A DNA stretch of 64,000 bases from Alcanivoracaceae bacterium (lineage in GTDB: Bacteria > Pseudomonadota > Gammaproteobacteria > Pseudomonadales > Alcanivoracaceae): positions 558,001 to 622,000 of the forward strand of contig JARGPN010000009.1 in NCBI GenBank assembly GCA_029213045.1, written 5' to 3'. Numbering within the stretch: position 1 is the stretch's first letter; the number at the start of each line of letters is the position of its first letter. This document shows, one piece after another, positions 41,258 to 47,339 of the stretch. The notes beneath the pieces were generated by a model, which was not told the origin of the DNA, ran no database searches, and saw nothing but the letters and a program-made list of their open reading frames with translations. The position numbers and the translations under genes are program-made.

Positions 41258-41770
41258 TTATTCTTGCGCAACAAATATCAGCGCGTCGCTGTTATAACCG
41301 AGCTTATCCACCGTATTAATAAAATGATTTTTCAGTTCATCGCTCACGGTTGGCGTTCTGGATAAGAGCCACAGGGTATTTTCACTGCCTGTGATAAAGG
41401 CGTATTGGTAGTTTTCTTTATCTAATTCAAAGATGACATAAGCGCCGTAAAACGGCCCGAAGAATGAAACTTCTAAATGCCCAACGTCAGGGCTTCCGGC
41501 AAACTTCGCCTTGCCAGTGGCTTCTTCCCATTCTTTGTTTTTCGAGGAGTAGCCTTTATTGATGACGCGCACGGTGCCGTCATCATTCATTGCGTACACG
41601 GCGGTGACGTTGTTCAAGCCTCTTTCAAAGCGATGATCTAGTCGCGCTATCTCGTACCACTTACCAAGGTAGCGTTCCAATTCAAAGTCGGTGACCGGCT
41701 TAATATTTTCTGGCACGCCGGCGCAGGCGCTCAGCAGAAGCGAGAGTAAAACCACTGCGATGTTTTTCAT
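41258..41770 (-). CDS. blc: Outer-membrane lipocalin Blc
   Basis: 170 residues. Lipobox LLSACAG (Cys near residue 16), then the lipocalin GKWYEIARLDHRFERGLNNV signature (GxW), the GYVDRTKYDY-like strand region around FFGPFYGAYVIFELD, and the C-terminal LWLLSRTPTVSDEL typical of bacterial Blc. It is a lipoprotein of the outer membrane that binds lysophospholipids or fatty acids and is stress-induced in relatives. It could be a cassette gene, but no attC was seen beside it. Confidence 0.9.
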   Translation of the reverse strand: MKNIAVVLLSLLLSACAGVPENIKPVTDFELERYLGKWYEIARLDHRFERGLNNVTAVYAMNDDGTVRVINKGYSSKNKEWEEATGKAKFAGSPDVGHLEVSFFGPFYGAYVIFELDKENYQYAFITGSENTLWLLSRTPTVSDELKNHFINTVDKLGYNSDALIFVAQE

Positions 41771-41802: not shown

Positions 41803-41858
41803 GCGCAAACGAGCACGACGCTCTCAATGCTCCTCTCAGTGCTCGTTTGCCACTGCGC
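41803..41858 (-). terminator. Long hairpin after the anti-sigma gene
   Basis: A perfect 12-bp inverted repeat (GCAAACGAGCAC/GTGCTCGTTTGC, 41805-41816 and 41839-41850) with GCGC/GCGC outside it and a 22-nt loop starts at the anti-sigma stop codon. It has no strong T-run, so it may be a weak terminator or an mRNA 3'-end stabiliser. Confidence 0.5.
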
Positions 41859-42568
41859 TACAGTTCAATTAAGCGTGTTTGATACACAACCGGCCCGGTG
41901 GGCTGCCCTGTTGGCGAGCCGCCCTTGGGTTCAAGGCTGATCGCTAAAGAGCGAGATTCAATTAACTCGCGCACTTGGTCGTTGCTCAACTGGATACGCA
42001 GCTCTGCCCCGCCGGTGGGCATAATCGCTAGCGAGACGGGTGCGCCGGATGACGGCAGCAACCAAAGTTCATAGTCCTGATCGAGGCCAACGTTAGACAC
42101 CGCCGGCAACGCTTTTAAAGTTAGCTGGTGTTCTCGCGCAGAGGTGTTCACCAGCCATACGGGTTCGGCTTGCTGATTTTGCACCACACCGAGGTACGCG
42201 GTTTGTTCAGGCGCGGTTGGCGCCCAGACGAGCATTACCATCAGCGCTGCGGTGGCCATCGCGGTGGTCCAACGCCACAGTCGCACTTTGTCCCACATGC
42301 TCACGGGGTCCCACATGGTTTCGGGTTGCTCAACTGCGTCGGGGAACAGCCTTTTTTCCACGGTTTGCCAGACGTCTTTCGGTGGCGGCACGGCAGCAAA
42401 AGATTCATTAAAGGGCTGTAAACGGCGCTCCCAGAACCACACCTGTCGACGCAATTTAGACGAGTCCATCATCCAACGTTCAAAACGAAGGCGCGCTTTG
42501 CCCTGCAACGTACCGACAACATATTCGGCGGCAAGTGCATGATTACGTTCAATATGATCTGGCTTCAT
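41858..42568 (-). CDS. RskA-like anti-sigma factor
   Basis: 236 residues from the ATG at 42568, which overlaps the sigma gene stop (ATGA). An N-terminal cytoplasmic anti-sigma helix bundle without a zinc HxxxCxxC motif (about 1-90) includes HALAAEYVVGTLQGKARLRFERWM. One membrane segment follows (about 98-117), then a periplasmic RskA C-terminal domain (YELWLLPSSGAPVSLAIMP, LAISLEPKGGSPTGQPTGPVVYQ). It should hold the ECF sigma factor inactive at the membrane until a periplasmic signal triggers release. Confidence 0.88.
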   Translation of the reverse strand: MKPDHIERNHALAAEYVVGTLQGKARLRFERWMMDSSKLRRQVWFWERRLQPFNESFAAVPPPKDVWQTVEKRLFPDAVEQPETMWDPVSMWDKVRLWRWTTAMATAALMVMLVWAPTAPEQTAYLGVVQNQQAEPVWLVNTSAREHQLTLKALPAVSNVGLDQDYELWLLPSSGAPVSLAIMPTGGAELRIQLSNDQVRELIESRSLAISLEPKGGSPTGQPTGPVVYQTRLIEL

Positions 42569-43110
42569 GATCCAAGGCACCGTCGTAATAAATCGAGTCC
42601 GCGCCGCACGCGGCTTTTTGTTGTGCCCAGAGGCTGCCCTGTCGCTGTCGCCAACTCTTGATGACTGAAACCACGAAAATACGCCATTTCAATGCTGCTT
42701 CGATATTCGGTATTGAGCTCCTGCAAGCAGGCGCTCAAACGCTGAGAGTCCTTCATGCTGGCTGCCTCGGTCATCGGGCCCATACTGTCATCCGCATAAT
42801 CATGTTCCACTTCGTCATAGGTGCTGTCGTGACGTCGACGGCGCAGCGCATCCAGGCAACGATAACGTCCAATGGACATTATCCATGTCATCGGTGTTCC
42901 TCGATCAACATGGTATTCACCGGCGTGGTGCCACACCTGGATATACGCTTCTTGTAGCACGTCTTGTGCTTCTTCACGGTTACGCAACAAATTCAGACAC
43001 ATGCCATACAGCACGGAACTGGTGGATTGATAAAGATCCGCAAATGCCTTGCGATCTCCCTGCGCGGTTTTTGCTAAAAAAACCACTAACTTGTCTGATG
43101 ACACTGGCAT
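42565..43110 (-). CDS. ECF sigma factor (SigK-like)
   Basis: 181 residues. Region 2 (about 15-95): AFADLYQSTSSVLYGMCLNLLRNREEAQDVLQEAYIQVWHHAGEY, with DALRRRR. Region 4 (about 125-178): LQELNTEYRSSIEMAYFRGFSHQELATATGQPLGTTKSRVRRGL. It pairs with an RskA-like anti-sigma gene. The identical motifs in the two divergent promoters at 43181-43209 and 43230-43258 indicate that it activates its own operon and the facing DUF4331 operon. Confidence 0.92.
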   Translation of the reverse strand: MPVSSDKLVVFLAKTAQGDRKAFADLYQSTSSVLYGMCLNLLRNREEAQDVLQEAYIQVWHHAGEYHVDRGTPMTWIMSIGRYRCLDALRRRRHDSTYDEVEHDYADDSMGPMTEAASMKDSQRLSACLQELNTEYRSSIEMAYFRGFSHQELATATGQPLGTTKSRVRRGLDLLRRCLGS

Positions 43111-43180
43111 ACTGAGCTCACTTTAATCGCTGCGTTAAAATGTGTGCGCGTGACCTTCAGTTAACAGTATCAACATCATT

Positions 43181-43209
43181 AATACGTGAAAGCAGCCCCT
43201 TTGGATGCA
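43181..43209 (-). promoter_or_regulatory. ECF-type promoter of the sigma/anti-sigma operon
   Basis: On the minus strand: -35 TGCATCC (43209-43203), 16-nt spacer, -10 CGTATT (43186-43181), 71 bp before the sigma gene start. The same -35, spacing and CGTA core occur in the divergent promoter. ECF sigma factors of related groups use CATCC or GATCC-type -35 and CGTA-type -10 elements. Confidence 0.75.
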
Positions 43210-43229
43210 TAAAGAAACATATTATTTTT

Positions 43230-43258
43230 TGCATCCACTCACCATTCCTCCGCGTAAG
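43230..43258 (+). promoter_or_regulatory. ECF-type promoter of the DUF4331 operon
   Basis: -35 TGCATCC (43230-43236), 16-nt spacer, -10 CGTAAG (43253-43258), 33 bp before the DUF4331 start codon. It mirrors the sigma gene promoter across a 20-bp AT-rich gap, so both are probably read by the same sigma factor. Confidence 0.78.
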
Positions 43259-43291
43259 TAAGCCAGACATTCTATTTATCGGAGGTTTACC

Positions 43292-44806
43292 ATGCGACAT
43301 CGTACGATTTTCATTCCCGCTGCTTGCGCCATGGCGGCAATGCTTGCTAGCCCCATCGCCCTAAGCTCCAGTCACCGTGAAGCGCCATTTATTACCGGTA
43401 TGCCAAAGTTAGATGGCACCGATTTTTATATGTTTAACAGCTATGAATCCGGTCGCGACGGATACGTCAGTCTGATCGCAAACTATTTGCCGCTGCAGGA
43501 TTCTTACGGTGGTCCCAATTATTTTTCACTCGACAACGACGCCATTTATGAAATTCACATCGATAACGATGGCGATGCAGTAGAAGATATTACGTTCCAG
43601 TTTCAGTTCAACACGGAACGCAAAAACCTCGCTGTCGATGTAGACGGCGTTCAGGTGCCTGTGCCATTAATTAATATTGGCGCCGTGACCGCTGCCAACA
43701 CTGGCGCACAAAATGTTTTAGAAAGCTACACAGTAAAAATGATTACCGGTGATCGTCGTACCGGCATGGTGCAAGACATCGGACTCGCCGGCAGCGGTGA
43801 AACCACCTTTGCCAAGCCGCTGGATAATATCGGTACGAAATCCATCGCCGATTACGCAACCTATGCCGATAGCTTTATTTATGACGTCACCATTCCCGAT
43901 TGCGCCATGCCCGGCAAAGTATTTGTCGGTCAGCGTCAGGAAGGCTTTGTCGTGAACTTAGGTGAAGTGTTCGATCTTGTGTCGCTGAACCCACTCGGCG
44001 CGCGGGATTCGCGTAGCAACACCATTGGCGATAAAAATGTCACCAGTCTTGCGTTAGAAATACCCGCGTCTTGTCTCACTGGCAGCAACAGTGTGATTGG
44101 CGCGTGGACCACTGCAAGCGTGCGTCAAGCGACAGTGTTTAACCCTAGCCCTAAAGGCTCCACCACCACCGGCAGCGACACCGCTAAAGCACCTGCCATT
44201 AAAGGCGGCGCTTACACGCAGGTATCTCGTCTTGGCTCACCGTTAGTGAACGAAGTGGTTATCGGCTTACCCGATAAAGACCGCTTTAACGCCAGCGAAC
44301 CCAAAGACGATGCGCAGTTTGCCACCTACGTGACCAACCCAAGCCTACCGGCACTGGTTGAAATCTTGTTCGGTGTGCCAGCGCCTGAAACACCTCGCAA
44401 CGATCTCGTCACGGTGTTCTTAACCGGCGTTCCGGGTGTAACTCAACTTCCTACCGTAACCGCCAGTGAAATGTTGCGCCTGAACACGGCCATTGCAGCC
44501 ACGGCCGCAGGCTCACAAGTAGACCTTGGTGTTGCAGGCGGTGACTTTGCCGGCTTCCCAAATGGTCGTCGTCCTATTGATGACGTGGTCGATATTGCGC
44601 TAACCGCTGCAGAAGGGTTCTTGTGCGGCAATGACCTGAACGGCGAAGCGGCGGGCGGCGAAATCGGTAACTGTGGTACCCAGGACAGCCAAGTGAACGG
44701 CGGCGCAATCGTGAATGACGGCGCGCTCCCTGATGCCAATGCTTACCTAACCACCTTCCCTTACCTGAACACGCCATTGCCTGGCGCCGACAACGTAGCG
44801 TCTTAA
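43292..44806 (+). CDS. DUF4331 secreted protein
   Basis: 504 residues. Signal peptide (cleavage near IALS-SSHREAP) and the hallmark DUF4331 start SSHREAPFITGMPKLDGTDFYMFNSYE, with IHIDNDGDAVEDITFQFQF, ILFGVPAPETPRNDLVTVFLTGVPG and GRRPIDDVVDIAL. Function of the family is unknown; it is expected in the periplasm or outside. A strong GGAGG site precedes the ATG. First gene of a four-gene operon facing an ECF sigma/anti-sigma pair. Confidence 0.88.
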   Translation: MRHRTIFIPAACAMAAMLASPIALSSSHREAPFITGMPKLDGTDFYMFNSYESGRDGYVSLIANYLPLQDSYGGPNYFSLDNDAIYEIHIDNDGDAVEDITFQFQFNTERKNLAVDVDGVQVPVPLINIGAVTAANTGAQNVLESYTVKMITGDRRTGMVQDIGLAGSGETTFAKPLDNIGTKSIADYATYADSFIYDVTIPDCAMPGKVFVGQRQEGFVVNLGEVFDLVSLNPLGARDSRSNTIGDKNVTSLALEIPASCLTGSNSVIGAWTTASVRQATVFNPSPKGSTTTGSDTAKAPAIKGGAYTQVSRLGSPLVNEVVIGLPDKDRFNASEPKDDAQFATYVTNPSLPALVEILFGVPAPETPRNDLVTVFLTGVPGVTQLPTVTASEMLRLNTAIAATAAGSQVDLGVAGGDFAGFPNGRRPIDDVVDIALTAAEGFLCGNDLNGEAAGGEIGNCGTQDSQVNGGAIVNDGALPDANAYLTTFPYLNTPLPGADNVAS

Positions 44807-44818
44807 AGGAGGACCATC

Positions 44819-45052
44819 ATGCGATTCCTACTAGCGTTCAGCATTACCGTGGCCTCTCTTGGTCTTGCCGCCTGCGGAGGCGGCAACGGCAAAGACCGCC
44901 CACAGGCGCCAGCCAACATCGGCTTTACCGCGTTTGTGAAAGCGCAGCTGGCAAACACAAGTGATGTTCGCGATCCCATCGAGATCAACAACCTCAACCT
45001 CACTGATCGGGATCAAAATAACCCCGACGCTTACAACAGCGTCGTCAGATGA
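44819..45052 (+). CDS. Small conserved lipoprotein of the DUF4331 operon
   Basis: 77 residues with a clear lipobox (LGLAACGGG, Cys at about residue 19) after a typical signal peptide, and a short polar tail containing FVKAQLANTSDVRDPIEINN. A strong AAAGGAGG ribosome site, 12 bp after the DUF4331 stop; its stop overlaps the next start (ATGA). Function unknown; probably an envelope partner of the DUF4331 protein. Confidence 0.75.
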   Translation: MRFLLAFSITVASLGLAACGGGNGKDRPQAPANIGFTAFVKAQLANTSDVRDPIEINNLNLTDRDQNNPDAYNSVVR

Positions 45053-46218
45053 GCGCACTACGAACACGCCATCACCCTTGGGTGATGGCGTTTTTTATCA
45101 GCGTACTGGGACTGCCTGCCACCTTGCAGGCAGCGCCCTATACACCAGCCCAAGACGATGTTGTGCTGATGGAACTCAATGAGCGCCAACAACAACTTGC
45201 GCAACAAACACGAACCTCCGGCGAACAGCACCGCGATGAAGCCACCGCGATTCAACTCGCCCAGGCGCAAATTCGGTACTCCCGCGAACAAGAAGACCCA
45301 CGATTTTTAGGCTATGCACAAGCAACGCTGGCGCCATTTAGTGACAGCAGCGATCCTGCCGTGACCATTCTTACCGCCAGTATCGAGCAACAGCGCCATC
45401 ACTTTTCGCAAGCGCAAACACGCCTCAAACAATTACTCGCACGCGCGCCCAATCAAGCGCAAGGCTGGCTATTGCTCGCCAATATTCAGCGGGTACAAGG
45501 CCAATACAGCGACGCCCAACATTCTTGCCAACAGGCCGCGCCGCATCTTTCTCCCGCCGTCACCATCCTGTGTCAGGCGAGTATTCAAGCAATGACCGGG
45601 CACGCGCAAAAAGCCTATGCCGTGTTGCAACGACTCGCCGACAGTAACCAACACCTCGGCACAGACTACGCACTGTGGCTGCAAACCATTCTTGCGGAAC
45701 TGGCCCTACAACAAGGTTTTGCCGACGACGCACAACGCCACATTGCGCAAGGACTGGCGATCGCGCCTGACGACAATTATCTGCATCTTTTACGCAGCGA
45801 CATTTGGCTTCAAACGAATCAACCCCAACGTGTTATTGCCGACCTTGAACGTTGGCAAGAACGCGACGGCGCGCTGTTACGTCTCGCCATCGCCGGCAAA
45901 CAAAACGGCCATGCCGACGCGAACCGTTGGGCAAATGACTACGCACAACGCATGCAAGACGCGCAAGACAACGGACGCACCATCCACTTGCGCGAACATG
46001 CCCGTTATCTTTTAGACGTCGCCGAGCAACCAAACGAAGCACTCAAGGTTGCAAAAGAAAATTGGCAAAAACAAAAAGAATTGGCCGACCTGCGACTTTT
46101 ACAAGCCAGCGCCAAAGCCAGCAACGACACAGCGACATTACGCGCGCTGCAAGAAGAATACGCTGGCCTTTACGATATTCCACGCAGTAACAATCAACAC
46201 AGCGAGACACCACAATGA
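45049..46218 (+). CDS. TPR-repeat periplasmic protein of the DUF4331 operon
   Basis: 389 residues with an N-terminal signal segment (GVMAFFISVLGLPATLQA-like, cleavage near residue 28). Degenerate tetratricopeptide repeats fill most of the chain, clearest around QGWLLLANIQRVQGQYSDAQHSC and DDAQRHIAQGLAIAPDDNYLHLLRSDIW. TPR arrays bind protein partners, so it may be the scaffold of the system. Overlaps its neighbours by four bases on each side. Confidence 0.75.
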   Translation: MSALRTRHHPWVMAFFISVLGLPATLQAAPYTPAQDDVVLMELNERQQQLAQQTRTSGEQHRDEATAIQLAQAQIRYSREQEDPRFLGYAQATLAPFSDSSDPAVTILTASIEQQRHHFSQAQTRLKQLLARAPNQAQGWLLLANIQRVQGQYSDAQHSCQQAAPHLSPAVTILCQASIQAMTGHAQKAYAVLQRLADSNQHLGTDYALWLQTILAELALQQGFADDAQRHIAQGLAIAPDDNYLHLLRSDIWLQTNQPQRVIADLERWQERDGALLRLAIAGKQNGHADANRWANDYAQRMQDAQDNGRTIHLREHARYLLDVAEQPNEALKVAKENWQKQKELADLRLLQASAKASNDTATLRALQEEYAGLYDIPRSNNQHSETPQ

Positions 46219-47339
46219 CCCGCGCACTCCTCTTGTTACTGTGCCTGATCAGCACCTCAGTGTGGGCCCACAAACCCAGCGACAGCTACCTGAAACTCGA
46301 CAGCGCCAGCGATACACCGCGCATCAATGGCCAGTGGGACATCGCACTGCGCGACTTACAATTAGTTATCGACCTAGACCGCAATAACGACCTCAACATT
46401 ACCTGGGGCGAACTGCGTCAAAGCCGCGAGCAATTGCAGAACACCGTGCTGGCATCGTTAACGCTGCAAGCCGTGCAAGAAGAAAACAATTATTCATGCC
46501 CACTCACACTGACCACTCTGCAAGTGGATGATCATTCCGACGGTCGCTATGCGGTTGTGTCGTTTATTGCCGATTGCGAGCAACCACCGCAACAACTGCT
46601 CGTCGAGTATCAATTTTTATTTTCACAAGATCCAAGCCACCACGGCCTGCTCAACTTTCGTCACAACGGCGACACCCTCAGCACCACCTTTAGTCACGAC
46701 TCGCGCCGCCAACAGTTGCGCATTAACGGCGCGTCACTGTGGTCCGCGTTTGTCGGCTTTGTTGGCCAAGGCATTCACCATATTCTGATCGGCTATGATC
46801 ACATTCTGTTTCTTATCACCTTGCTATTGCCTGCCGTGCTCTACTGGCAACACGGTCGCTGGTATCCCACCCATTCAATGGCCAGCGCGCTCACCCAAAC
46901 ACTGGGTATTGTCACCGCCTTTACCGCCTCCCACTCACTGACCTTGGCCATGGCGACATTTGGCTGGATTACGCTGCCGAGTTGGTTGGTGGAATCTGCC
47001 ATTGCCGCCACCGTAGCGTTCGGCGCGGTAACGAATTTTTATCCACGTCTGTTCCCTAAACGCTGGTTAATGGCACTGATTTTCGGTTTGATTCACGGAC
47101 TGGGGTTCGCCTCCGTTCTGGCAGACTTGGGCCTAACGGGGAGTGGTATTTTCTGGCCGCTACTGGGCTTTAATATCGGCGTAGAACTAGGTCAGATGGC
47201 AATCGTATTGGTGTTCATCCCCATCGCGTTTGCGTTGCGATACAGCCGCTTTTATCAGCGCGGGGTGATGCAAGCAGGTTCAATCATGATCATCGCGCTG
47301 GCGAGTTTCTGGCTAGTAGAACGCCTCACGTCTTCGTGA
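46215..47339 (+). CDS. HupE/UreJ_2-family membrane protein
   Basis: 374 residues. Signal peptide (residues 1-18, SVWA-HKPSDSY), a roughly 150-residue periplasmic domain, then seven or so membrane segments beginning with the HupE motif GIHHILIGYDHILFLITLLLP. Later conserved pieces are ASHSLTLAMATFGW, FGLIHGLGFASVL and GFNIGVELGQMAIV. Members carry conserved His/Asp residues in the membrane and have been linked to nickel or other metal transport. Last gene of the ECF-controlled operon, coupled by ATGA to the TPR gene. Confidence 0.85.
   Translation: MTRALLLLLCLISTSVWAHKPSDSYLKLDSASDTPRINGQWDIALRDLQLVIDLDRNNDLNITWGELRQSREQLQNTVLASLTLQAVQEENNYSCPLTLTTLQVDDHSDGRYAVVSFIADCEQPPQQLLVEYQFLFSQDPSHHGLLNFRHNGDTLSTTFSHDSRRQQLRINGASLWSAFVGFVGQGIHHILIGYDHILFLITLLLPAVLYWQHGRWYPTHSMASALTQTLGIVTAFTASHSLTLAMATFGWITLPSWLVESAIAATVAFGAVTNFYPRLFPKRWLMALIFGLIHGLGFASVLADLGLTGSGIFWPLLGFNIGVELGQMAIVLVFIPIAFALRYSRFYQRGVMQAGSIMIIALASFWLVERLTSS

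Follow-up and report, generated by a model that had tools for sequence, protein, structure and literature searches.

A widespread DUF4331-TPR-HupE gene cassette with a predicted ECF sigma switch and a possible role in periplasmic metal capture

Of the systems described so far, the anglerases come closest to the effector genes of the locus considered here. For Ang-1, the excerpt of the describing paper used in this study gives a Kd of 74 nM for copper and of 220 nM for nickel, and proposes that anglerases feed metal to a permease (PMC12537917). With respect to regulation, PSPTO_1043, an ECF sigma factor of oxidative stress, has been listed with the promoter TGATCC-N16-CGTA (PMC5507510), and RpoE and ChrR of R. 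capsulatus, from a study of photooxidative stress, resemble SigK and RskA (PMC7074977). The present locus lies in a 64,000-nucleotide stretch of DNA from an Alcanivorax-like genome (the window). Based on sequence and on structural models, we consider it slightly better than an even bet (probability about 0.52) that this locus is a sigma-regulated module capturing a periplasmic metal, for which Cu(II) is the likeliest candidate and Ni(II) the next. While its parts are of known kinds or belong to known DUFs, the system as a whole is, like its regulon, undescribed in the literature searched.

By reading of open reading frames together with a Pfam profile search, six genes were confirmed between positions 41858 and 47339 of the window (Table 1); no Rfam family matched at the locus. 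The initial annotation had described six packed genes with ATGA overlaps, and genes and overlaps are indeed real; instead of a single run, however, they form two divergent transcription units, one comprising the sigma and anti-sigma genes and the other the DUF4331, lipoprotein, TPR and HupE_UreJ_2 genes, which are separated by an intergenic region of 181 bp (43111-43291). In the former unit the ATGA overlap contains the anti-sigma ATG at 42568, and in the latter such overlaps join the lipoprotein to the TPR gene (45049-45052) and the TPR to the HupE gene (46215-46218), with a gap of 12 bp between DUF4331 and the lipoprotein gene. The GTG at 42580, given as anti-sigma start in the list of open reading frames, is probably not the true start, and the ATG at 42568 was taken instead. 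Adjoining the anti-sigma gene on the same strand, but outside the conserved cassette, is a gene for a lipocalin-like (Blc-type) lipoprotein (41258-41770).

Table 1. Features of the locus, with positions counted in the window
Feature	Position	Strand	Evidence
RskA-type membrane anti-sigma factor	41858..42568	-	RskA_C 6.4e-18; ATGA overlap with sigma stop
ECF sigma factor, SigK-like clade	42565..43110	-	Sigma70_r2 3e-15, Sigma70_r4_2 2e-10; placed by tree with RskA-linked sigmas
Predicted sigma promoter of sigma/anti-sigma unit, TGCATCCAAAGGGGCTGCTTTCACGTA	43183..43209	-	motif; divergent copy conserved in Alcanivorax relatives
Predicted sigma promoter of DUF4331 operon, TGCATCCACTCACCATTCCTCCGCGTA	43230..43256	+	35 bp before ATG; motif conservation
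DUF4331 exported protein (predicted)	43292..44806	+	PF14224 8.7e-143, full length (1-421/421); predicted mature N-terminus SSHREAP
77-aa lipoprotein, acidic [DE]xx[ED]Pxx[VIL]-type motif (VRDPIEIN)	44819..45052	+	sequence; equivalents in most loci
Exported TPR protein (predicted)	45049..46218	+	TPR_19/TPR_16; conserved beside HupE
Predicted anglerase-type HupE_UreJ_2 permease	46215..47339	+	HupE_UreJ_2 (PF13795) 1.2e-44; His19 and A18 conserved
Predicted periplasmic Ang-like domain of HupE	46269..46754	+	mature His1 start; AF2 pLDDT 92.4; best PDB match 9GCE

The intergenic region carries two divergent copies of the motif TGCATCC[AG]-N15-CGTA, at 43230 on the plus and at 43209 on the minus strand. 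Upstream of DUF4331 the motif was found exactly in 31 of 78 regions, the window included, and with at most one mismatch in 49 of 78, counts on which related Alcanivorax loci weigh; shuffled upstream sets gave 0.05 per class (about 0.1 expected with at most one mismatch), and none was found in the region within the gene. In the matching upstream regions the spacer is almost exclusively 15 N. A sigma-regulated system as proposed in the initial annotation thus finds backing in a conserved predicted promoter at both units, and control of both by the sigma factor, that is, their co-regulation, is strongly predicted from these sequences. The genome itself has five exact matches, of which the pair at this locus is intergenic and the other three are not; the regulon therefore looks local there, and a wide one was rejected. 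In two other genomes, TPR-HupE is unlinked from DUF4331 and has its own copy (L162) or a near-copy (L020) of the promoter site. In relatives, the motif precedes genes that by eye resemble those for a CuZn-SOD lipoprotein (L043:8211), a flavin amine oxidase (L014:5951) and a TonB receptor (L026:582) and, with one mismatch, a fasciclin-like gene (L071:19203). These genes suggest that the inducer is stress of the envelope or oxidative stress. TonB receptors are not claimed as a core part; they lie near some loci, with the promoter only in some (L026, and the related loci L053 and L074). In other genomes (L164, L151, L156) exact sites stand before a gene that may code for a cytochrome P460-like lipoprotein, before one for a rhodanese-like protein and before one for a further ECF sigma factor.

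The minus-strand unit has a SigK/RskA-type layout, in which the ECF sigma gene overlaps the gene for a single-pass anti-sigma factor with RskA_C, the membrane segment having been read by eye. In a phylogenetic tree of the cassette sigma factors, a well-supported branch (98/93) separates those linked to RskA from those linked to ChrR, and the promoter site is common to cassettes with RskA-type and to those with the unrelated ChrR-type anti-sigma factors. At the locus itself only RskA_C is present, and a profile search of the genome for Cupin_7, the mark of the ChrR cupin anti-sigma factor, found none.

As to the effector genes, sequence and model strongly predict that the HupE gene codes for an anglerase-type permease. 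According to the -3/-1 rule the precursor would be cleaved between AxA and HKPSDSYL, so that the predicted mature protein begins at His19. In an alignment of 47 HupE proteins this His is conserved in 100% and the preceding Ala in 97%, and it is likewise invariant as His1 in a second alignment of 41 rows; in the membrane part, H-x5-DH and other His and Glu residues are invariant among the 47 proteins. For the AlphaFold2 model of the mature N-domain, Foldseek returned 9GCE, the Cu-bound Ang-1 domain of a HupE/UreJ-2 protein, as the best match in the PDB (E 2e-7), and superposition by VIA (Z 12.7, rmsd 3.4 over 136 residues) placed residue 1 on residue 1; the zinc-binding ZrgA and PA4063 followed as the next matches. 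A search of the PDB with the domain sequence missed 9GCE and gave only chance and EF-hand-like matches. Between helices the domain has an EF-hand-like loop, DRNNDLNITWGE, with D37, D41, W46 and E48 each at least 90% conserved, which might bind calcium, and it contains two conserved Cys.

The nearest relatives of the DUF4331 protein are found in Alcanivorax. In 78 of 78 DUF4331 proteins the -3/-1 rule is satisfied by a predicted cleavage leaving [SA]SHREAP, whereas a cleavage shifted by one residue in either direction fits poorly. The protein encoded here would hence begin with SSH, its His being His28 of the precursor, and the heptapeptide is kept in Actinomycetota and Bacteroidota as well (Streptomyces, Miltoncostaea, Adhaeribacter). 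NH2-X-X-His is the known amino-terminal Cu(II)/Ni(II) motif (ATCUN); the conservation of SSHREAP could also be due to structure or export instead of metal. An AlphaFold2 model with a pLDDT of 82 is beta-rich, its N-terminus being of low confidence. As the search with this model revealed no significant relative among PDB structures (lowest E 0.005; VIA Z no higher than 5.8, with antibody folds making up most of the matches), no function is claimed from the fold, and the sequence itself had no match in the PDB.

The 77-aa lipoprotein has no Pfam match. A small lipoprotein of about 50-90 mature residues follows DUF4331 in most loci, a count that is approximate given selection by a lipobox pattern. 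The acidic-Pro motif [ED]xx[EDQA]Pxx(x)[VILPAS] occurs in 50 of 64 of these lipoproteins, as compared with a mean of 12.8 and a maximum of 22 after shuffling, a significance that is overstated as the motif was derived from the same lipoproteins; the lipoprotein may have a docking role. The TPR protein matches several TPR families, each weak alone.

Gene content comparisons show that the cassette is widespread and not peculiar to this Alcanivorax-like genome. From a species-level genome collection 80 DUF4331 loci were obtained, of which 71 remained after near-identical Alcanivorax loci had been set aside. The TPR gene is present in 55 and HupE in 54 of the 71, usually directly downstream, and about 31 have a linked ECF sigma gene, which may lie on either side of DUF4331 and on either strand, contig ends lowering all three counts. 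In a similarity-independent sample of 276 gammaproteobacterial genomes searched for both families, DUF4331 was found in 25 (about 9%), and HupE_UreJ_2 in 23 of these in contrast to 57 of the 251 genomes without DUF4331 (p = 6e-12, shared ancestry being ignored). HupE lies near DUF4331 in 15 of the 20 loci fetched with flanks from that sample, some genomes of which overlap with the first set. The trio DUF4331-TPR-HupE extends across Pseudomonadota, including plasmids of Marinobacter, Comamonadaceae and Lichenicola; in Streptomyces a "nickel transporter" takes the place of HupE, in Pseudoalteromonas sigma, anti-sigma, DUF4331 and HupE genes occur with unnamed genes in between, and Adhaeribacter (Bacteroidota) and Miltoncostaea have DUF4331-TPR only. 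The co-occurrence of the families outside this genome, set beforehand as a neighbourhood check, was thus borne out from Pseudomonadota to Streptomyces. Tex and ThrRS also recur as neighbours, but this looked like surroundings shared within a lineage. On plasmids of four Rhodobacterales genera (L140, L142, L147, L150; Jannaschia, Sulfitobacter, Paracoccus, Marinovum) DUF4331 lies within a cluster of type II secretion genes, beside a small protein that is unannotated in Sulfitobacter, and may be a secreted cargo; as these loci are without adjacent TPR or HupE genes, the module is not obligate. Streptomyces plasmids (L143, L148, L149) carry two DUF4331 genes, one in the trio and the other beside a sortase gene with a fasciclin gene near, and one plasmid has a molybdopterin oxidoreductase gene.

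In the working model that follows, the ECF sigma factor would be held by the membrane RskA-type anti-sigma factor and, when free to act, would drive its own unit and the four-gene envelope operon, each from one of the two divergent copies of the promoter. From conservation, the effector proteins are strongly predicted to be exported. A divalent transition metal might then be bound by DUF4331, periplasmic or surface-exposed, through its free N-terminal Ser-Ser-His, by the anglerase domain through His1, or by both, the small lipoprotein and the TPR protein would serve as docking or scaffold parts, and the HupE_UreJ_2 membrane domain would carry the metal inward or clear it. That a metal is handled, as the initial annotation had it, is partly supported, since the HupE N-domain matches an anglerase and the N-terminal His motifs are invariant; neither these motifs nor the promoters figured in that annotation. 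Which metal it is, we infer, as we do the part played by DUF4331, the path of the metal from one protein to the next and the signal, which would be oxidative or metal stress in the envelope. More specifically, DUF4331 might be an unrecognised carrier that takes Cu(II)/Ni(II) by its invariant N-terminal X-X-His, docks to the acidic-motif lipoprotein as well as to the TPR protein, and passes the metal on to the anglerase permease, switched by a SigK/ChrR-type sigma factor and secreted via a dedicated type II system in Rhodobacterales, a chain that we put forward tentatively and that is rather unlikely to hold in every link.

Alternatively, the cassette might mainly defend the envelope against singlet oxygen or ROS, with metal handling being secondary, e.g., by removal of Fenton-active metal or protection of exposed proteins. 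The occurrence of cassette and promoter with ChrR-type anti-sigma factors, the near-identity of the promoter to that of PSPTO_1043 (PMC5507510), the likeness of the R. capsulatus pair to SigK/RskA (PMC7074977) and, in relatives, the sites before CuZn-SOD, fasciclin and flavin amine oxidase look-alikes named by eye all speak for such a defence. However, the effectors resemble metal-binding and transport proteins and not repair enzymes, the genome has neither ChrR nor, according to a profile search, CuZn-SOD or fasciclin, and its two local promoter sites are its sole intergenic ones, so that we regard this explanation as unlikely, albeit as one to be reckoned with. The absence of CuZn-SOD, which leaves this genome without an evident copper client, also counts against the capture of copper.

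That DUF4331 is instead a structural or adhesive protein of the surface or the extracellular space, which the other genes process or anchor, would agree with its beta-rich model, its position within type II secretion clusters of the four Rhodobacterales genera and its neighbourhood to sortase and fasciclin genes in Streptomyces, but the close link to an anglerase permease in most DUF4331-bearing Gammaproteobacteria would be unexpected for a structural protein and makes this improbable. Still less probable is an uptake of nickel or cobalt to supply Ni/Co enzymes, the role of classical HupE: while the HupE_UreJ_2 family, the invariant H-x5-DH of the membrane domain and the binding of nickel by Ang-1 (PMC12537917) would fit, Ang-1 prefers copper, and a profile search found neither NiFe-hydrogenase nor urease in this genome, which disfavours a role in nickel-enzyme supply. 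Metal capture under sigma control, most likely of Cu(II), is therefore the reading that we retain. It would provide a testable role for DUF4331, a family that under this name or as PF14224 appears in no paper of the literature searched, where a control search with other DUF names gave papers; the newly described anglerase permeases would gain partners and a regulon dedicated to them, and two unrelated anti-sigma types would be seen to govern one and the same effector operon by way of a single promoter.

In CopC/YcnJ-type histidine-brace copper importers a periplasmic domain with an N-terminal His feeds a membrane permease. HupE shares this way of working by analogy only, as the permease family differs, and membership is not claimed. 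With the anglerase RbAng-1a (9GCE), as presented in the excerpt of PMC12537917, it has in common the His1 right after the signal peptide, the fused HupE_UreJ_2 domain and a beta-sandwich with helices between strands 2 and 3, which is the best match and in register from residue 1. Sequence identity, in contrast, is very low (12-17% in structural alignments), and the excerpt makes no mention of sigma control or of a TPR, lipoprotein or DUF4331 partner. With the SigK/RskA system of Mycobacterium and Yersinia (PMC7509140) the locus shares an ECF sigma factor with an RskA_C membrane anti-sigma factor and, in some relatives of the cassette, fasciclin-type targets, whereas the effector operon of this genome is another one and the promoter reads TGCATCC-N16-CGTA. 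From the RpoE/ChrR (ECF11-type) oxidative-stress systems, e.g., PSPTO_1043 (PMC5507510), it differs by its RskA-type anti-sigma factor in a genome without the ChrR cupin, but it has the same promoter layout (-35 xxATCC, a 16-nt spacer and CGTA), and in other species the cassette itself comes in ChrR versions.
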